Below, piece after piece: positions 3 to 11,044 of a DNA stretch of 59,573 nt (position 1 is its first letter; every line of letters begins with the position of its first letter). This stretch comes from Kofleriaceae bacterium (GTDB taxonomy: Bacteria > Myxococcota_A > Polyangia > Haliangiales > Haliangiaceae). The stretch lies in the NCBI GenBank assembly GCA_022842285.1, contig JALHPV010000009.1, positions 1 to 59,573 of the forward strand, in the 5' to 3' direction. The notes beneath the pieces are model-generated. The model worked only from the letters and a program-made list of their open reading frames with translations. It was not told the origin of the DNA and searched no databases. Both the position numbers and the translations under genes were made by a program.

Positions 3-80
3 ATCCTTCGCCAGCACCACGAGATCGAGACGAACCCGCAGGTCCGCGAGTCGCTGGGCGAGCTCCTCCGCCGCGCCTGA
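3..80 (+). CDS. C-terminal end of a truncated protein
   Basis: The window opens inside a reading frame that runs to TGA at 78-80. The last 25 residues are a charged, helix-like tail ending SLGELLRRA. Codons follow the GC-rich third-position pattern of the neighbours, which supports a real gene. The family cannot be identified from so short a piece. Confidence 0.5.
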   Translation: MLRQHHEIETNPQVRESLGELLRRA

Positions 81-1776: not shown

Positions 1777-2058
1777 ATGACGATTCGCACCGCGATGATG
1801 GGGATGACGTTGGCGCTGGGTCTTGCCGCGTGCGGCAAGAAGGAGGTCAACAAGATGACCGAGTACGCGAACGAGATGTGCGCGTGCAAGGACGTGAAGT
1901 GTGCCGACGCGGTCTTCCCGAAGATCGAGGCGTTCACGAAGGAGAACGAGGGCAAGGAAGTGCCGGCGGCGATGGCCGACGCGTACAACCGCGAGCTCGA
2001 TCGCACGCAGAAGTGCTACGACAAGCTGCAGGCCGCGGCGCCCGCACCGACGGAGTAG
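1777..2058 (+). CDS. Small Cys-containing lipoprotein
   Basis: This is a 93-residue protein. Its signal peptide ends in LGLAACGKK, a clear lipobox. The mature part is short, charged and helical. Three further cysteines (MCACKDVKC) lie near the N-terminus and one near the C-terminus (KCYDKL), a spacing that could allow two disulfide bonds. It ends in a Pro/Ala-rich tail. No family is recognised. Periplasmic or outer-membrane attachment is expected from the lipobox. It has its own promoter-like box at 1765. Confidence 0.7.
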   Translation: MTIRTAMMGMTLALGLAACGKKEVNKMTEYANEMCACKDVKCADAVFPKIEAFTKENEGKEVPAAMADAYNRELDRTQKCYDKLQAAAPAPTE

Positions 2059-2064
2059 CTCGCC

Positions 2065-2574
2065 TCAGAGGCCGGCGGCGGCGCGGAGCTCGACGATCGC
2101 CTGGGCCGCGACCGGCTGGCGAATCGGGCCGAAGCCCTGGAGGTAGAACGTGTCCTCGCCCTCGAGCACGACGAAGATCTCGTCGTAGTCTGCGATCGGA
2201 TTCGGGGGCTCGGCCGGCGGGGGCTCGCCCCACGCCGCGTAGGCCATCTGCATGAGGTGGGTCTCGTTGCGTGGGGACAGGGCCTTGGTGGCTTCTCGTT
2301 CCAGCAGGCCGTACGACGGGGCGTTGGCGGCTTCGGAGCTCCCGGCGTAGATCGTATCGGCGTCGATGTCGACGACGACGCGCCAGGGCGGCGAGACCAG
2401 ACCGCCACCGGCCACATAGACACCATGCCGTGGCAGCAGGGGCTGGATGGCCGCGGGCAGTTCCGCGCGCGGTGTCACGGGGCGCGTCCCGGTGGTCGGG
2501 GGCGTGGTCGACGGCGCCGTGGGCTCGCCCCCACAAGCCATCAGCGTCAGAAGGATCGCGGCGCCAGCTCGCAT
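2065..2574 (-). CDS. Lipoprotein, unknown function
   Basis: The product has a short signal ending LTLMACGGE (lipobox) followed by a Thr/Pro-rich linker. A compact domain of about 130 residues follows, containing VVDIDADTIYAG and an acidic stretch around DYDEIF. I chose the ATG at 2574 over the one at 2583, because TAGGAT lies seven bases upstream of 2574 while the 2583 start would fall inside that box. The gene is divergent from 2607, with only 32 bases between the two starts. No family is recognised. Confidence 0.65.
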   Translation of the reverse strand: MRAGAAILLTLMACGGEPTAPSTTPPTTGTRPVTPRAELPAAIQPLLPRHGVYVAGGGLVSPPWRVVVDIDADTIYAGSSEAANAPSYGLLEREATKALSPRNETHLMQMAYAAWGEPPPAEPPNPIADYDEIFVVLEGEDTFYLQGFGPIRQPVAAQAIVELRAAAGL

Positions 2575-2581
2575 GGCACGC

Positions 2582-2600
2582 ATCCTAACCCTGCTAGATT
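2582..2600. promoter_or_regulatory. Back-to-back -10 boxes of divergent leaderless promoters
   Basis: On the minus strand TAGGAT (2587-2582) ends seven bases before the ATG at 2574. On the plus strand TAGATT (2595-2600) ends six bases before the GTG at 2607. The whole divergent gap is 32 bases, so the two polymerases would compete for overlapping DNA. Confidence 0.5.
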
Positions 2601-2606
2601 GAACGC

Positions 2607-4139
2607 GTGGCGCTAGAGCACGTCGCCCAGGGCCAAACTCGGTTCTTCACGCCGGGTATCGCCCCCGATCCGCGCGGCATCGTCCTCGGTCGGTTCATCA
2701 TGATGACGTTCGCGACCCTCGAGGGCGCGGTGTCGTGGTTCCGCCTGTACTCGTCGGAGGCGTCGCTCGACGAGCTGCTGGCCAGCCTCACGATCGTGAA
2801 GGGGCGAACCGCTCTCGGGAGCCGCGAGATCGTGGTCCAGATTCCGGCGGTGTCGTCCTACGCAGCGGATCGTGCCGCTCGGTTGTGCCGACTGGTCGGT
2901 GGCGCGACGTACACGGGCACGTCGAAGCACTACGTGAAGTATCGCGATGACCGCTCGCCGTATGGCTACGACGCCGTCGACATCGGCGCGATGCCCGCCG
3001 GCACCGACTTCATGGTGCATGGCGACGAGTTCGCCCAGGGCTACGTGCGGGAGGGCGAGCTACCCTTCCAGCGCCTGCTGTTCCGGCTCACGATCCGCAA
3101 GCTGCCGGGCGGGGAGCAGCTCGACGACGAGGATCGCGGCGAGCTCTACCTCGCGGTCGCGCGCGGTCTCGCCGACGGCATCATTCGCTACCTCTGGCGC
3201 AACCGCGTCGAGGCCGAAGCAGGGCTCTTCACGCCCGGCACCACGAGTGCCTTCGAGGATCAGGCCCGCGACCGCGGGTACATGCTGATCCGGGCGCGCG
3301 GTCTGCCCGAGCGCATCCTCGCGCTCTTCATGGGGACGCCCGGCATCGACGTGTTCAAGCCCGCCGGCGCGAACGCCGCCGTCGCGGTCGGCTACGCGCA
3401 CCCGATCGATCTCGGATCATGCGCATCGGTGTTTCCGCCGGAGACGTTTCACGTGTTCTGGCCCGGCGATCGCGTCGACGTGTTGCCGGGTCCGCTCACC
3501 CTCAGCGACATCGGCGACCTCACCCGCGTCGACCTCGAGCTCGAGAAGGTCAGCGAGCCCGGGCAGCATGGGGCCGGTCCGCCGCCCACGATCGGGGTCG
3601 AGCTGAAGCTCGCCGTGTCCATGGGGCCGCCGAAGCGCGTCGTCGCCACGCTGATCGCCACCGAGCACGGGCCGCGCCTGAAGCGCATCCTGTTCGCGCT
3701 GCCGCCCGTATCGCTGCGCGGGCATCGCGTGGCGGTCACCGATCGCGGCATCCTGGTGATCGGCTCGGAGAACCTCGACGTGATTCCGCTCGGACAGCTC
3801 ATGTACGAGCTCACGCCGGGCCTGCTGGTGCCGCTCGGCATGGAGGTCGTGCCGCGGGTCACGCCCGAGGTGCTCTCGCGCGCGCTCGGTCACGCGGCCG
3901 GGCTCGTCACCGTCTTCACGAACGACGGCATGCCCTTCCAGGTACAGGAGAGCGCGTTCGCGACGCTCGAGCGCCGGTCCCTGGCCAAGCTCGAGGTCGA
4001 CCGCGCCGATTCGATCAGCTACGTGGCAGATACGGTCGGCGAGACGCGCGTGGTGAACGACGCCGTCGGCCGCTTCGCGCTGTGGGGCTTCCCCGACGTG
4101 TCGGATCGCAAGCTGCTCGGTAGCGGCGACAAGAAGTAG
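2607..4139 (+). CDS. Large conserved-looking protein upstream of a MoxR operon
   Basis: A 510-residue soluble protein starting at GTG. I do not recognise the family. It has an N-terminal mixed alpha/beta region (residues about 1-150), a helical middle with RGELYLAVARGLADG and RYLWRNR, and a beta-rich C-terminal third with repeated hydrophobic strands (about 330-430). No signal peptide or membrane segment is evident. The stop is directly followed by the ATG of the next gene, and a MoxR ATPase comes third. This arrangement recalls the MoxR-containing ternary conflict or assembly systems, in which unknown scaffold proteins accompany the ATPase. That link is context only; no vWA domain is seen here. 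Confidence 0.75.
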   Translation: MALEHVAQGQTRFFTPGIAPDPRGIVLGRFIMMTFATLEGAVSWFRLYSSEASLDELLASLTIVKGRTALGSREIVVQIPAVSSYAADRAARLCRLVGGATYTGTSKHYVKYRDDRSPYGYDAVDIGAMPAGTDFMVHGDEFAQGYVREGELPFQRLLFRLTIRKLPGGEQLDDEDRGELYLAVARGLADGIIRYLWRNRVEAEAGLFTPGTTSAFEDQARDRGYMLIRARGLPERILALFMGTPGIDVFKPAGANAAVAVGYAHPIDLGSCASVFPPETFHVFWPGDRVDVLPGPLTLSDIGDLTRVDLELEKVSEPGQHGAGPPPTIGVELKLAVSMGPPKRVVATLIATEHGPRLKRILFALPPVSLRGHRVAVTDRGILVIGSENLDVIPLGQLMYELTPGLLVPLGMEVVPRVTPEVLSRALGHAAGLVTVFTNDGMPFQVQESAFATLERRSLAKLEVDRADSISYVADTVGETRVVNDAVGRFALWGFPDVSDRKLLGSGDKK

Positions 4140-5285
4140 ATGGCGAAGCCGCACGTCCGCGAGTTCCTCGAGCACTTCGTGAAGCCACTCGTCGCTGGCG
4201 GCGAGCTTCACGTCGGTCGCCCGATCCCCGCGGACCAGCTGCTCGCATGGGAGGCCCAGCTGGCGGAAGCCTCCGTCGAGACCGAGGCCGTTGACGACGC
4301 GCGCATGGCGGTGCTGTCGACGATCGTCTATCGGCCGCCGCCGCTCCTCTTCGAGGCGGATGACCTCGCGCTGTGCGCCGGCCTCCACAACGCGCTGTTC
4401 CTCGTCCACCCACGCGCCGACGTGTGGACGGTGACCGACAAGCAGCGGCGGCGCATCGTCGACACCGCGCTCTCGATGGTGAGCCAGCCGCTCACGCAGA
4501 ATCGATCGCGTGTCCTCGGTCGCCACGCGCTGCTTCACAACCTGTTCGAGCTCACGCGCAACGACGTCACCGTGTCCTGGTGGACGGGCAAGGCGGTCTT
4601 TCAGGGGCAGTCGCCGCCAACCCGCCTCACCGCGTGGAAGGGCGTGCGTCGCGTGCGCGAGGACACGTCCGTCGTCGACTTCGACGAGCTGCTCGCCGTC
4701 CCCGACACGGCGCCGGTCGTGGCCACGCTCGTGCGGCGCTCTCCGCTCACGCAGCTCCTGACATCGCATCCGGCGGCCCCGCCGCTGCACTGGGAGGACG
4801 CGACGTTCCTCCTGCGCGACGCCGAGCTCGCGCGCGCCATCGCGTACACGCTCGTTCCCGAGGGCCCACCGGCACGCATCACGTCCGGACCGGCTCGCCT
4901 CGCCGCCGCCTTCGAGCAGATGCTCGAGCGCACGCCCGACGAAGCAGATGTCCGCGCGGTGGCCGCCTTGCTCGTGCACCTCGGCGCGCTGTTCTGCTTT
5001 GCCGAGCTCACGCTCCGCGAGGTGGGCGCGAAGAGCCCGCTCCTCTCCACCGTGCTCGCGGCCGAGGCCGCCGCCCAGCGCCCGCGCGGACTCGCCACCC
5101 TGTTCGCGCTGCCGAACGCGCTGGCGCAGGTCGATCCGCGCCTCGCGGTCCCGCCTGGCATCGAAGAAGTCCCCGCGCTCGCCCGCCGCTGGTCGATGCA
5201 TCGCGGTCAGACCGTGGAGCTGCTCGGCGACGCCGTCGTCGACGCGATCGTGGCTCGCTTGAAGCGCCATCTACGCGCCAACTGA
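4140..5285 (+). CDS. Helical protein, middle gene of the MoxR operon
   Basis: This 381-residue protein begins at the base after the preceding stop (TAG then ATG), so translation is probably coupled. It looks mainly alpha-helical, with regions such as QRRRIVDTALSMVSQPLTQ and repeated hydrophobic helices toward the C-terminus (RAVAALLVHLGALFCFAEL). There is no signal peptide. I recognise no family. Its position between the 510-residue protein and the MoxR ATPase suggests a partner or substrate adaptor in the same complex. The gap to the ATPase is 42 bases. Confidence 0.75.
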   Translation: MAKPHVREFLEHFVKPLVAGGELHVGRPIPADQLLAWEAQLAEASVETEAVDDARMAVLSTIVYRPPPLLFEADDLALCAGLHNALFLVHPRADVWTVTDKQRRRIVDTALSMVSQPLTQNRSRVLGRHALLHNLFELTRNDVTVSWWTGKAVFQGQSPPTRLTAWKGVRRVREDTSVVDFDELLAVPDTAPVVATLVRRSPLTQLLTSHPAAPPLHWEDATFLLRDAELARAIAYTLVPEGPPARITSGPARLAAAFEQMLERTPDEADVRAVAALLVHLGALFCFAELTLREVGAKSPLLSTVLAAEAAAQRPRGLATLFALPNALAQVDPRLAVPPGIEEVPALARRWSMHRGQTVELLGDAVVDAIVARLKRHLRAN

Positions 5286-5327
5286 GCCGTTTCATGGGCG
5301 CAGTTGGGGTAAGGTGACCGCGTCTAC

Positions 5328-6566
5328 ATGGTCGCGCCGCCTCCCACTCCGCGTAACTTTGCCGTCGATGTCGCGCGCGCGTCCGCCGCGTTCCAAGACC
5401 TCGCCCGCCAGATGGGGGCGCAGTTCCTCGACAAGCAAGAGATCATCCGCCTGATGGTCGTGTCGGCGATCGCCGGCGAGCACATGGTCATCGTCGGTCC
5501 GCCCGGCACCGCGAAGTCGGCCATGATCGACATGTTCGCGAAGCTCATCGACGCGAAGTACTTCGAGTATCTACTCACGCGCTTCACGGAGCCGAACGAG
5601 CTCTTTGGCCCGGTCGACATCTCCGCCTTTCGCGAAGGTCGGTACACGCGCCGCCTCGAGAACATGTTGCCGACCGCCGAGGTCGTGTTCCTCGACGAGA
5701 TCTTCAAGTCGAACAGCGCGATCCTGAACTCGCTCCTGCACGTCATCAACGAGCGCAAGTTCCAGAACGGCCCCGAGGTCGTCCCCGTCCCGCTCATCTC
5801 GCTCTACGCGGCTTCGAACGAGGTCCCGAACGACGAGAACCTCGCGGCGATGTTCGACCGCTTCCTCGTGCGCGTGCTGTCCGACAACCTCGACAGCTAT
5901 CACTTCCACGAGCTGATGAAGAAGGGCATCGCCCTCGAGCTCCGCAAGATGACGGGCCGTCGCGGTCCCAACGACGGGCCCCGCACCGGCGCTCCCGCCG
6001 ACCTCCGCCCCGTCATCAGCGCCAACGACCTCCGGTCCATCCAGCAGAACTTCGACAAGTTCATGGTGTTCCCCGAGGAGTTCCTGACCAAGTACAAGGG
6101 ACTCGTCTTCCAGATCCGCAGCGAGGGCATCTCGATCTCCGACCGCCGGGCGGTGAAGCTCCTGAAGCTCTTCGCCGCGAGCGCGGTGTTCGATGGCCGC
6201 ACGCGTGTCCACGACGGCGACTTCTTCATCCTCCGCCACATCTGGAACAACCTCGATCAGGTCGAGCTCCTCGAGGAGATCGTGAACCCGGTCGTCGACA
6301 GCTACTACCGCGAGCATCCGGACGAGCGCCGCTTCATCGGCCCCTCCGCGTCGCTGGATGACCTGCTCACCGAGCTCGGTCTCATCCGCGAGCTGCTCAC
6401 GAGCGGCACCGAGCTCTCGGACATCCAGCTGTTCAGCCAGCTGAAGAACCTGAACGAGATCAAGGTCGCCCTCGCCGCCCTGCCCGGCGACGCTGCCGCG
6501 CGCATGATCCGCGAGGTCGACCAGCTCCTCGAGACCGTCTTCGCGTCCTCGAAGTTCGGCCTCTAA
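5328..6566 (+). CDS. MoxR-family AAA+ ATPase, RavA-like
   Basis: A 412-residue AAA+ ATPase. Walker A is GPPGTAKS (residues about 57-64). Walker B is VVFLDEIFK, followed by SNSAILNSLLHVINERKF, which closely matches the RavA branch of MoxR proteins. A conserved AASNEVP sensor-like segment and FDRF arginine-finger region follow. The C-terminal half (about 230-412) is helical and family-specific. MoxR ATPases usually act as chaperones for assembly or activation of partner complexes, often with a vWA protein such as ViaA. No vWA gene lies next to this one; the two upstream unknown proteins are the likely partners. A GTAAGGT box 12 bases before the ATG may be an internal promoter. Confidence 0.9.
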   Translation: MVAPPPTPRNFAVDVARASAAFQDLARQMGAQFLDKQEIIRLMVVSAIAGEHMVIVGPPGTAKSAMIDMFAKLIDAKYFEYLLTRFTEPNELFGPVDISAFREGRYTRRLENMLPTAEVVFLDEIFKSNSAILNSLLHVINERKFQNGPEVVPVPLISLYAASNEVPNDENLAAMFDRFLVRVLSDNLDSYHFHELMKKGIALELRKMTGRRGPNDGPRTGAPADLRPVISANDLRSIQQNFDKFMVFPEEFLTKYKGLVFQIRSEGISISDRRAVKLLKLFAASAVFDGRTRVHDGDFFILRHIWNNLDQVELLEEIVNPVVDSYYREHPDERRFIGPSASLDDLLTELGLIRELLTSGTELSDIQLFSQLKNLNEIKVALAALPGDAAARMIREVDQLLETVFASSKFGL

Positions 6567-6624
6567 ATCAAGTCGGACATGATTTCTGCGCACGTTGCGC
6601 ATCAATCATGTCGGACTTGGTTTT
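6565..6624. terminator. Bidirectional terminator hairpin
   Basis: Between convergent genes, AAGTCGGACATGATT pairs with AATCATGTCGGACTT at 14 of 15 positions. The loop contains a second palindromic pair of TGCGCA. A-rich sequence precedes the left arm and TTTT follows the right arm, so it can serve both strands. The left arm starts inside the TAA stop of the MoxR gene. Confidence 0.75.
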
Positions 6625-8380
6625 AGCGAATCGGGCCGCCGTTGGACCACTGCGCGGAGACGATCCGCCAGCCCTCCGGCTCGACCCGCAGGATGGCGAG
6701 CATGCGCAGCGGCTGGGTGATGTCCATCGCCGACGTCTTGCTCTTGGTCGTGAAGTTCACGACCAGCGCGGCGAACGCGGTCTCCTTGTCGGCGGTGACG
6801 ATGCGGATGCTGCCTCGCGGCGAGATGCGGTAACCGCCACCCTTGCGCGCGAGGATCTTCTCGCCGCCGACGATGCGCTGGCCGGGACCGCTGCCGATGT
6901 TCACGGCCTGGGGATGCGCGCTGCGCATGGCGAGGAGCTTGGCCTTGTCACCGAAGCCGTCGCGGACGGCCTTCGAGAGCTCGGGCGGACCGTCGACACC
7001 CGCTGGCACCGGCGAGACCTCGGGCAGCGTGAAGAGGATCGCGCGCTGGATCGCGTCGGCATCGGGGATGAGCTCGGCCCAGCACGTCGCGCGGATCGTC
7101 CACGCGTCGGCCTCGAACATCGCGAGCTCGGTGACGGCGACCTTGCGTCCGTTGAGCTTCAGCTCGAGCGCGATCCACGCCCGATCTCCATCGTCGCCGA
7201 CCCCGGCGTAGACCTTCTCGATCGTCGGCTTCTCGCCGAAGTCCGCCGCGATCTGCTTGGCGACCGCGTCGCGACCCTCGGCGACGGCGGTGCCGTCGAT
7301 GCCGAAGCCAAACACGCTGCCGTGCAGGCTCTTCGTCAGCTCGGCGATGTTCCCGGCGACGATGTGGCCGACGTGCGTCTCGAGGAACTGCGTCGCCGGA
7401 ACGGCCGGCGTCGGTCGCGCAGGCGTGGTGACGACCACCTCGGCACCCGAGCCGGAGCCCGCCCCCGCGGCGCCACTTCCCGAGGCCGCGGGCACCTCCG
7501 TCACCGGGCTCGCCGAGCCGGACCCCGAACCGACGCCGGCATTCGTGGTCGTCCCGACCTTCTTCGTCGGATCGTCGGTTGGCGGAGGGTTGGCCTTCAC
7601 GTTTGTGGTCGGTTCGGCCTTCACCACCACCGGTGCGCGACGCTTCTGGGTCCCCGAGACCAGGACCCCCGTGCCCGCGCCCACGCCGATCGCGAAGCCT
7701 GCGAGGGCGAAGTACATGCGGCGGCGCGAGCGGCGAATCTCGGGTGGCGCCGACGGCACGACCCACACCGACGTGCGCGACGGCCCCATCGGCGCCTGTC
7801 CGTATGCGGGGACCGGCTGGTACGTCCCCGTACCACCGCCGTGCGTCCGCGGCGCGGACGGGGCCTGCCAGCCGCGGTCCGTCTCGGGCACCGGCGCCAC
7901 CGCCGTGAACATCATCGAGTAGCCGGTGCGCGTGGCATCGGGGGTGTGCAGCCAGCGGCCATACTTCACCGCCTGCGGGATCGAGAGCAGGCCGAGCGCG
8001 GCGACGCCGACGAGGCCGAAGCCCACGTACGAGGTGAGCTCGAAGATCATGTCGATGTCGCCGGGCGGCAGGATGCGCAGGAGCGACGCGAGCACGGGAT
8101 ACGGCAACCACGCGAGCAAGCCGCCGAAGCCGGCCGTGATGAGGACGGTGGCGAGCAGGCTGATCATCCCGCCCCGCGGCATGAAGCCGCCGAAGATGAT
8201 GCCGAGCATCGCGACGCCGGCCCAGGCGATGACGTACTTCGCCCCGCCCGACTGGTTCTGCCAGACGAGGACGAACGCGATGGTGCCGGCGAGCAAGCAC
8301 GCCGCATTACTGAGCTGGGCCAGGAACGCCGCCAGGCGCAACACGAAGCGGCTCGGAGGCCCTGGCGGTTCCCGACTCAT
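6623..8380 (-). CDS. Membrane protein with two NTF2/SnoaL-like periplasmic domains
   Basis: The 585-residue protein starts at ATG 8380 (MSREPPG); the longer frame upstream is low-complexity Arg-rich shadow. Four transmembrane stretches occupy about residues 10-150. A Pro/Gly-rich segment, a fifth membrane helix near 225 (YFALAGFAIGVG) and a Gly/Ser linker follow. The C-terminal half has two alpha+beta repeats resembling SnoaL or DUF4440 (NTF2-like) domains. The first begins FLETHVGHIVAGN with AEGRDAVAKQIAADF; the second ends GWRIVSAQWSNGG. These folds bind small ligands or act as scaffolds; no catalytic residues can be assigned. It runs convergently to the MoxR operon. Confidence 0.7.
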   Translation of the reverse strand: MSREPPGPPSRFVLRLAAFLAQLSNAACLLAGTIAFVLVWQNQSGGAKYVIAWAGVAMLGIIFGGFMPRGGMISLLATVLITAGFGGLLAWLPYPVLASLLRILPPGDIDMIFELTSYVGFGLVGVAALGLLSIPQAVKYGRWLHTPDATRTGYSMMFTAVAPVPETDRGWQAPSAPRTHGGGTGTYQPVPAYGQAPMGPSRTSVWVVPSAPPEIRRSRRRMYFALAGFAIGVGAGTGVLVSGTQKRRAPVVVKAEPTTNVKANPPPTDDPTKKVGTTTNAGVGSGSGSASPVTEVPAASGSGAAGAGSGSGAEVVVTTPARPTPAVPATQFLETHVGHIVAGNIAELTKSLHGSVFGFGIDGTAVAEGRDAVAKQIAADFGEKPTIEKVYAGVGDDGDRAWIALELKLNGRKVAVTELAMFEADAWTIRATCWAELIPDADAIQRAILFTLPEVSPVPAGVDGPPELSKAVRDGFGDKAKLLAMRSAHPQAVNIGSGPGQRIVGGEKILARKGGGYRISPRGSIRIVTADKETAFAALVVNFTTKSKTSAMDITQPLRMLAILRVEPEGWRIVSAQWSNGGPIR

Positions 8381-8540
8381 GAGCAGGTGGAGCGTATCCT
8401 GACCGAACGCGGCGAGTGCGCCCTCCGACCACGCCGCTCCGGCCACGTCGGGGGCAACGCCCCTACCTCCCCCCCTATTCCGCGCCGAAATCGACCGCGC
8501 CCCTGCGACCAAATCCCGGGGTCGTGGCGTCCTTGGACCC

Positions 8541-9086
8541 GTGAGCGACCACGAGCGGTTCCGACAGGTGGTGGAGCCCCTGCACGACCGTGCGCTGGCG
8601 TTCACGCGGGCGCTGTGCCGCTCGAACGCCGAGGGCGACGACGTGTTCCAGGAGGCCCTCCTGCGCGCGTTCGCCAAGCTGCACCAGCTCGAGGATCCCG
8701 CCGCCGCGAAGGTCTGGTTCTACCGGATCATCGTGTCGGTTCAGCGATCCCGCGCCCGCCGCGGGGCCTGGCGCCGCTGGCTCCCGCTCGTGGGGCCCGA
8801 CGACGCCGAGGCCATCGGCGAGGTCGACTACCGTTGCCCGGGCTGGGACAACGAGACCCTCGCCGCCAACCGCCGCATTCGCGCCGCCCTCACCGCCCTG
8901 CCCGCCGACCAGCGCGAAGCGATCGTGCTCTACGAGATCGAAGGCTGGCTCGTCGAGGAGATCTCCGCGCTGCACGGCGTGTCCACGTCCGCCATCAAGT
9001 CGCGGCTCGCGCGTGGTCGCGAGCGCCTCCGCACCCTCTACACCAACGGCAACGCCAACCTGGCCTTCGCCAAGGAGCCCACATGA
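8541..9086 (+). CDS. ECF sigma-70 family RNA polymerase sigma factor
   Basis: A 181-residue protein with sigma region 2 at about residues 10-80 (DVFQEALLRAFAKLHQL, then WFYRIIVSVQRSRARR). Region 4 lies at about 110-170, with LPADQREAIVLYEIEGW and the helix-turn-helix segment VEEISALHGVSTSAIKSRLARGRERL. The length is normal for ECF sigma factors. The gene starts at GTG. Its stop overlaps the ATG of the next gene by ATGA, so the two are translationally coupled. The partner membrane protein may be its regulator. Confidence 0.9.
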   Translation: MSDHERFRQVVEPLHDRALAFTRALCRSNAEGDDVFQEALLRAFAKLHQLEDPAAAKVWFYRIIVSVQRSRARRGAWRRWLPLVGPDDAEAIGEVDYRCPGWDNETLAANRRIRAALTALPADQREAIVLYEIEGWLVEEISALHGVSTSAIKSRLARGRERLRTLYTNGNANLAFAKEPT

Positions 9087-9931: not shown

Positions 9932-11044
9932 CTACTCGACGTTCGGCGCGGGCGGCGGACCCTTGCGGACCCGCAGCGGCACGAGCGGCGAGCCATTCGC
10001 GCGATTCGCGAGCTGACCGCAGGCCGCATCGATGTCGTCGCCGCGCGGGATGCGCAGGTACGTCGACATCCCGAGCTTCTTGCACTCGTTCTGGAAGGCA
10101 TCGACCGCCGCCGCCGAAGGCCGCGCATACGGCGCCTCGGGGTGCGGGTTGTACGGGATGATGTTCACCTTGCACTTGATGCCGCGGAGCAGCTTCGCGA
10201 GCTGCGCGGCATCGGCGAGCGAGTCGTTCACGCCCGCGAGCAGCACGTACTCGAACGTGATGCGCCGGCGCTGCTCGAGTGGATACGCCTTCAGCGCCGC
10301 GAGGAGCTTGCTGATGTTCCACTTGCGGTTGATCGGCATGATCTCGTCGCGAATGGCGTCGTTCGGCGCGTTCAGCGACACGGCGAGGTTCGGCCGCACC
10401 GTCTCGCCGCCGAGCTTCTCGAGCTTGGGCACCAGGCCCGACGTCGACACCGTGATGCGCCGCGCGGACAGGCCCGCCCCCTTGTCGTGGGTCAGGATGC
10501 GGAGCGAGGTGACGAGGTTGTCGTAGTTGTGGAGCGGCTCGCCCATCCCCATGTAGACGAGGTTGGTGAGCTGCCGATCGGGCTCGGTCTCGGCGAGGAG
10601 CTTCCGCGCCAGGTATACCTGGTCGACAATCTCGCCCGCATCGAGGTTGCGCTTGAGGCCGAGCTTCGCGGTCGCGCAGAACTGACAGTCGACCGCACAG
10701 CCCACCTGCGACGAGATGCACTGCGTGGTCTTGTGCCCCGACGGAATCAGCACCGTCTCGATCGACGCGCCATCGCGCGTGAGCAGGCGGAGCTTGCGCG
10801 TGCCGTCCTTCGACGTCTGCACCTCGGCGACCGTCAGGCAGCCGATGGTCGCGACCTCCGCGAGCCGCGCCTTGGTGGCCGCCCCGAGGTTCGTCATCTC
10901 GTCGAACGTGCGGGCGCCGTGAGCGTGGATCCAGCGCCAGATCTGCTCGCCCCGGAACTTGGGCCAGCCCTGCGCCTCCGCAAACTCGCAGGTTTGCTCG
11001 AGGGTCATGGCGCGCAGGTCCTGCATGGCGCCTGTAGCTACCAT
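9932..11044 (-). CDS. rlmN: 23S rRNA/tRNA adenine-C2 methyltransferase RlmN
   Basis: Radical SAM enzyme of 370 residues that methylates A2503 of 23S rRNA and A37 of some tRNAs. The N-terminal RlmN domain has FRGEQIWRWIHAHG. The radical SAM cluster motif CxxxCxxC is CAVDCQFC (C116, C120, C123). The methyl-shuttling cysteine is in GDDIDAACGQLA near residue 342. GMGEPLHNYDN and NPHPEAPYARPS are also family signatures. The start is uncertain between 11044 and 11026. It is convergent with the sigma-factor operon. Confidence 0.95.
   Translation of the reverse strand: MVATGAMQDLRAMTLEQTCEFAEAQGWPKFRGEQIWRWIHAHGARTFDEMTNLGAATKARLAEVATIGCLTVAEVQTSKDGTRKLRLLTRDGASIETVLIPSGHKTTQCISSQVGCAVDCQFCATAKLGLKRNLDAGEIVDQVYLARKLLAETEPDRQLTNLVYMGMGEPLHNYDNLVTSLRILTHDKGAGLSARRITVSTSGLVPKLEKLGGETVRPNLAVSLNAPNDAIRDEIMPINRKWNISKLLAALKAYPLEQRRRITFEYVLLAGVNDSLADAAQLAKLLRGIKCKVNIIPYNPHPEAPYARPSAAAVDAFQNECKKLGMSTYLRIPRGDDIDAACGQLANRANGSPLVPLRVRKGPPPAPNVE

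Follow-up and report, generated by a model that had tools for sequence, protein, structure and literature searches.

The window analysed here, a stretch of 59,573 nucleotides from a Kofleriaceae bacterium (contig JALHPV010000009.1 of assembly GCA_022842285.1), carries close to its start three genes, all on the plus strand, which we denote P1, P2 and P3 (Table 1). An initial annotation, made from the sequence alone, had described them as two proteins of no recognised family packed together with a RavA-type MoxR ATPase and apparently forming a self-contained three-gene system similar in layout to the MoxR ternary systems. The packing was confirmed, with a gap of 0 bp between P1 and P2 and of 42 bp between P2 and P3, and the start sites match those of orthologues, which begin at the same residues. 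The set is not self-contained, however: two further genes, encoding a von Willebrand factor A (vWA) domain protein, P4, and a protein with tetratricopeptide (TPR) and HEAT repeats, P5, also belong to it and are separated from P1–P3 by a contig edge.

Table 1. Features of the P1–P3 locus and its surroundings, in window coordinates.
Feature	Position	Strand	Description
P1	2607-4139	+	510 residues, GTG start; alpha+beta, C-terminal half related to bpX2/fvmX7
bpX2 match within P1	3675-3980	+	P1 residues 357-458
P2	4140-5285	+	381 residues, helical; small three-stranded insert with invariant WWTG (147-150); no known family
P3	5328-6566	+	412 residues, bpMoxR-type AAA+ ATPase
Hairpin	6561-6628 (about)	n/a	between operon and convergent gene; possible terminator; -36.1 kcal/mol, z -8.4
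C-terminal end of P5 (TPR + HEAT, ~602 residues)	3-80, stop codon 78-80	+	tblastn with P5 orthologue
Overlap with end of contig C18	1-176	n/a	BLASTN, 98.9% identity, 2 mismatches

P3 showed a strong match to the Pfam family bpMoxR (PF20030; E = 6.8e-73, 244.6 bits, cut-off 27). Because this model also matches proteins in 12 of the 14 control genomes, the assignment rests on the high score together with the form of the P-loop: the Walker A motif GPPGTAKS (residues 57–64) fits GxxxTAKS, a peculiar P-loop variant that Kaur et al. 2020 (PMC7159879) describe as frequent in both the FtsH and the beta-propeller ternary systems. The Walker B motif is FLDEIF (residues 121–126), N164 and R178 are conserved, and the ATPase motifs are invariant in all 14 aligned P3 orthologues. 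We take N164 to be the sensor-type asparagine and R178 to be a candidate arginine finger. The designation RavA-type holds for the AAA+ core but not for the rest of the protein: the alignment with RavA is limited to residues ~25–323 and scores 185 bits compared to the RavA equivalog cut-off of 681. A profile search matched P3 to the RavA structure 6q7l with E = 2.3e-44. Other MoxR paralogues in this genome are located in other operons and were set aside.

The claim that neither accompanying protein belongs to a recognised family stood for P2 but not for P1. P1 matched bpX2 (E = 4.9e-8, 33.4 bits) and fvmX7 (E = 7.6e-6, 25.6 bits), both above the curated Pfam cut-offs of 23.6 and 24, respectively; among 22 orthologues, bpX2 was found in all and fvmX7 in 11 (E up to 1). 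bpX2 was found in none of the 14 control genomes, and its single copy in this genome lies inside P1. The P1 model is moderately confident (predicted local distance difference test, pLDDT, 76.8; below 50 for residues 1–17 and 458–510). Foldseek yielded no match to it at E up to 0.001, and the best VIA-align match, to PII-like/ferredoxin-like arrangements, reached Z = 6.8 over 67 residues, which we considered insufficient for assigning a function. P2 was matched neither by Pfam nor by PADLOC, nor credibly by NCBIfam. Its model is confident (pLDDT 91) and mostly helical, with the invariant motif borne by the small sheet; a Foldseek search of the PDB found nothing at E up to 0.001, and the best VIA-align score (Z = 5.5, generic helical-repeat proteins) falls under the meaningful level of the tool. 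The lack of structural matches in these lists does not by itself make either fold new. Profile searches against the PDB produced no match for P1 or P2 and a single weak one (0.066) for P4.

The two additional genes were identified in relatives, where P4 (~509 residues) and P5 (~603 residues) follow P3. In the genome studied here, they are encoded on the minus strand of another contig, C18 (P4 at 1908–3437, P5 at ~97–1905), the end of which overlaps the start of the window up to both contig ends. The overlap includes the 3' end of the P5 gene, and residues 579–602 of a P5 orthologue align to window positions 3–74 with 91.7% identity; together, these observations put P4 and P5 in the same orientation as P1 and ~2.5 kb upstream of it. 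The join is slightly doubtful, given the two mismatches and the draft assembly of 550 contigs. Thus, the reported absence of a vWA partner is correct within the window, but the contig ends there and the vWA gene sits on C18. In P4, residues D318, S322, M323, R324 and G325 of the DxSxS region are invariant in 20 of 20 members. The Pfam matches of P4 are weak (VWA_2 in 13 of 20 members; ivWA in 14 and ivWA-helical_N in 2 of 20, best E = 2.4e-5), and the listed scores of the ivWA type lie below the curated cut-offs. P5 members contain HEAT_2 (18 of 18) and TPR_16 (9 of 18). Pfam searches detected no propeller family in the 20 P4 members (the conserved part of the 509-residue protein ends near residue 480) and no propeller domain in the 18 P5 members, a stray match to TPR_WDR35 corresponding to a TPR model. 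In 11 loci (L043 and ten others), P3 and P4 are separated by a gene for a 118-residue response-regulator-like receiver, of which no copy was found in the window or in L103, and one two-contig genome (G142) carries P4 and P5 twice on its contig C1 with identical scores (~5.4–8.7 kb and 344.8–348.1 kb, ~339 kb apart).

The expectation that both little-known proteins accompany the MoxR ATPase was borne out by co-occurrence and synteny across relatives. We surveyed 192 genomes of the class, counting P1 and P2 at 1e-3 and P4 and P5 at 1e-20, with fragmented copies scored as present; for P3, 132 genomes had a match at 1e-30, of which 125 (E <1e-80) were kept and 7 with weaker, probably paralogous matches were dropped. 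P1 and P2 were each present in 122 genomes, P3 and P4 each in 125, and P5 in 126; all five occurred together in 114 genomes, 62 had none, and 16 had a partial set. Every pairwise co-occurrence yielded a Fisher P value below 1e-36, uncorrected for shared ancestry. P3 and P4 were found together in 122 of the 128 genomes having either, and P1 was present in 84 of the 123 genomes with at least 90% completeness and at most 5% contamination. P2 follows P1 in 112/117 genomes, P3 follows P2 in 89/121, P4 follows P3 in 79/122 and P5 follows P4 in 95/124; all five are collinear in 59/114, and breaks of draft contigs explain part of the non-adjacent counts. Relatives of P2 were retrieved from 37 loci in records labelled Kofleriaceae, Nannocystineae, Polyangiaceae, Myxococcales, Deltaproteobacteria, Proteobacteria, Sorangium and Minicystis. 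P1 adjoins P2 in 34 of these, the remaining three (L045, L054 and L057) being cut by contig ends, and P3 lies within the DNA around P2 in 23. In a sample of 282 genomes from the phylum, 45 contained P1; five of these lie outside the class, and one of the five has a weak match. P1 and P2 are side by side in three outgroup loci, of which L110 also contains P3 and P4 and L111 also P3; in a fourth, L112, a short contig carries P1 and none of the others. The gene rlmN (window 9932–11044, minus strand) is also found near the set in several relatives (L039, L049, L050, L052, L053, L054, L059, L088 and L089), which makes the wider locus syntenic.

We propose, with a probability of about 0.62, that an ATP-driven protein-remodelling machine of five subunits, P1–P3 among them, is part of the normal genetic equipment of this myxobacterial class. 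By analogy with MoxR-vWA pairs, P3 would form a hexameric AAA+ ring, and P4, with its DxSxS motif, would be the adaptor that grips the client; P5 and the helical P2 could serve as binding scaffolds, and P1 as a dedicated alpha+beta subunit common to other MoxR ternary systems. The five proteins would bind one another, and ATP hydrolysis by the ring would pull on or re-fold a client complex via P4, for a housekeeping rather than a defensive purpose.

Several observations weigh against this proposal. None of the five genes is present in 62 of the 192 class genomes, so that the set is dispensable in some lineages. Mean identity is 52% for P1 and 46% for P2, compared to 74% for P3, and the two faster-evolving proteins may be less central or client-facing. 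In P4, an invariant Thr-His stands in place of the fourth-strand aspartate of the vWA metal site, which makes metal-dependent gripping uncertain; some vWA domains of the FtsH and beta-propeller ternary systems also lack one or both aspartates (PMC7159879). The pairwise distance matrices of P1–P5 correlate at r = 0.94–0.98 across the 21 loci with all five genes, as expected under joint inheritance, but species history alone would also produce such values. Finally, P5 matched a PADLOC HEAT-ARM model at 1.6e-10 over ~70 residues, probably due to the HEAT repeats alone.

The best-surviving alternative, which we nevertheless regard as unlikely, is a conflict system such as Kaur et al. have proposed, in which the MoxR-vWA pair would be a threshold device and P1, P2 or P5 would act as the effector or sense the invader, so that infection is limited in multicellular myxobacteria. 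The families of P1 and P3 are named from those systems, which Kaur et al. tie to multicellular bacteria (PMC7159879), and in an outgroup genome from another class of the phylum (G199, locus L113) a P1-like protein and a protein with WD40 repeats are encoded near a MoxR ATPase (9e-84); this locus is apparently a relative of the beta-propeller type. The P1-like protein of this locus matches the P1 profile at 2.6e-12 but has no Pfam bpX2 match; a P2-like open reading frame (ORF) is not claimed there, its E-value being only 0.021. A conflict role nonetheless agrees poorly with a set that is near class-wide and mostly single copy, and with a P1 N-terminus that is conserved, not hypervariable, among orthologues. 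Evolutionary rates point the same way for P3, as judged by identity to the window copies at the nine loci with RlmN in the retrieved DNA: P3 is more conserved than this housekeeping protein at eight of them. P4 and P5 are each more conserved than RlmN at three of the nine and often near-equal at others (at L053, 73.7 and 73.5 versus 73.8 for RlmN), falling clearly below it at L049, L088 and L089 (at L088, 45.4 and 44.8 versus 56.9); P1 and P2 are less conserved. PADLOC gave no match for P1, P2 or P4 and one weak match (0.016) for P3, and neither P1 on plasmids nor P2 in phages was found in one search each. Among the conserved neighbour clusters, which were judged by example sequence and size (L096, which is short, and L097, on the same contig as L043, were left out), none was recognised as a toxin, nuclease, protease or membrane effector, and no clear transmembrane stretch was found in any of P1–P5 (the best 19-residue hydropathy of P5 is 1.21). 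Because no effector was seen among these clusters and no such stretch in the proteins, we favour cellular remodelling over a conflict role by about three to one.

A second alternative, a little less probable again, is that the locus combines two separate neighbouring units, a P1–P2 complex, perhaps under the control of a protein kinase, and a RavA-ViaA-like chaperone made of P3, P4 and P5. The question of whether the three window genes always co-travel has a divided answer: P1 and P2 are the tightest pair, but P3 stands apart from them in family f14, where it is next to P2 in none of 21 genomes. From the likeness to named Sorangium and Minicystis loci, f14 is probably Polyangiaceae, and P1–P2 are apart from P3 in all 11 named Polyangiaceae-type loci within the DNA examined. 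Upstream of P1–P2, seven of these 11 loci (L063, L066 and L068–L072) carry a divergent gene for a protein-kinase-like protein of 1290–1330 residues, a possible regulator; it was not detected in L064, L065, L067 and L073, three of which are short contigs. Opposite-strand genes intervene between P2 and P3 in some close relatives (L037, L041, L046 and L047). In G003 (L097), from the same genus as the genome studied here, P3 is divergent from P1–P2 and heads the P4–P5 genes, which shows that a split of the locus at the P2–P3 boundary is possible. Against a division into two units, P3 is rarely missing from genomes with P1 (4 of 122) or P2 (1 of 122), and P1 bears bpX2, a domain named from MoxR systems. 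Moreover, all five genes are retained in 21 of 21 f14 genomes although scattered, which argues for a functional linkage beyond shared location. An apparent absence of MoxR from Sorangium- and Minicystis-type genomes was dropped, as whole-genome searches revealed P3 to be present and unlinked. That unrelated orphan genes lie next to a MoxR ATPase by chance has nothing in its favour beyond the missing family of P2; this reading is refuted by the conserved order and co-occurrence across many families and has a negligible probability.

We also put forward, tentatively and as a proposal that we would not expect to hold in full, that a MoxR-vWA machine of five subunits is inherited vertically as standard equipment of the class and serves an essential or near-essential cellular assembly step, that it retains the undecorated form ancestral to the later FtsH and beta-propeller 'conflict' systems, and that P2 is a new family with its own fold. 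Genomic evidence has led to the MoxR ternary systems being interpreted mostly in terms of immunity or conflict, and here relatives of their parts occur with no visible effector. As a near class-wide and mostly single-copy set, P1–P5 offer a simple system in which to learn what a MoxR-vWA core with bpX2/fvmX7 subunits does, with concrete knock-out targets in relatives that are in culture, Sorangium and Minicystis among them.

Downstream of P3, the hairpin is far more stable than its shuffled versions (mean -14.1 kcal/mol), and beyond it lies a convergent ORF of 684 residues (window 6623–8677, minus strand) with a SnoaL_3-like C-terminal part. The strong bidirectional terminator described in the initial annotation is plausible as a prediction from sequence, but the flanking T/A runs are short (~3–4) and the hairpin is not listed by a consensus terminator scan.

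The profile searches for P1 and P3 bear out the predicted kinship with the MoxR ternary systems, and P1–P5 are best read as a variant of these systems, either stripped down or a hybrid of the FtsH and beta-propeller types. No description of the five-gene set was found in the literature searched, although the loci may be included in the supplementary gene lists of Kaur et al. (PMC7159879). With the beta-propeller systems (subsystem 4 of that work), the set shares bpMoxR with the GxxxTAKS motif, bpX2 in P1 and a TPR protein. In those systems, however, the vWA protein strictly has a C-terminal propeller of about four blades, a domain that Pfam did not detect in P4, and the third component combines a variable N-terminus, TPR, propeller and membrane segment, whereas P5 has TPR and HEAT repeats, and neither a variable N-terminus nor a membrane segment was seen; for P2, the family searches gave no match. 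The FtsH systems (subsystem 3) share fvmX7 with P1, and P4 may comprise a helical N-terminal region and a divergent vWA, being weakly similar to ivWA and ivWA-helical_N with scores below the cut-offs. No FtsH double-AAA protein was recognised in the neighbourhood survey, which assessed conserved clusters from their N-terminal sequence and size and did not extend to the whole genome, nor was a ubiquitin-like system, a radical SAM or a caspase-like gene among the neighbours reviewed.

Among better-known pairs, RavA-ViaA of Escherichia coli is similar in that the P3 core aligns with RavA and both ATPases have a vWA partner, but P3 lies far under the RavA equivalog score and has no full-length match. 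To our knowledge, RavA-ViaA has no counterpart of P1, P2 or P5. CbbQO, NorQD and GvpN are MoxR-vWA assembly chaperones. CoxD-CoxE and magnesium chelatase are named among such chaperones as well (PMC7159879). Compared by description only, these share with the proposed machine an AAA+ ring that remodels a client through a vWA adaptor and differ in the client and the accessory subunits. P3 and P4 constitute a MoxR AAA+ ATPase with its vWA partner, the pair that is general to all of these. Given that a MoxR and an X-subunit known from one or both ternary systems are present, whereas the vWA-propeller fusion was not detected and no FtsH component was seen nearby, P1–P5 do not appear, by defining features, to be a full member of either system and are best filed as a new MoxR-vWA ternary variant.

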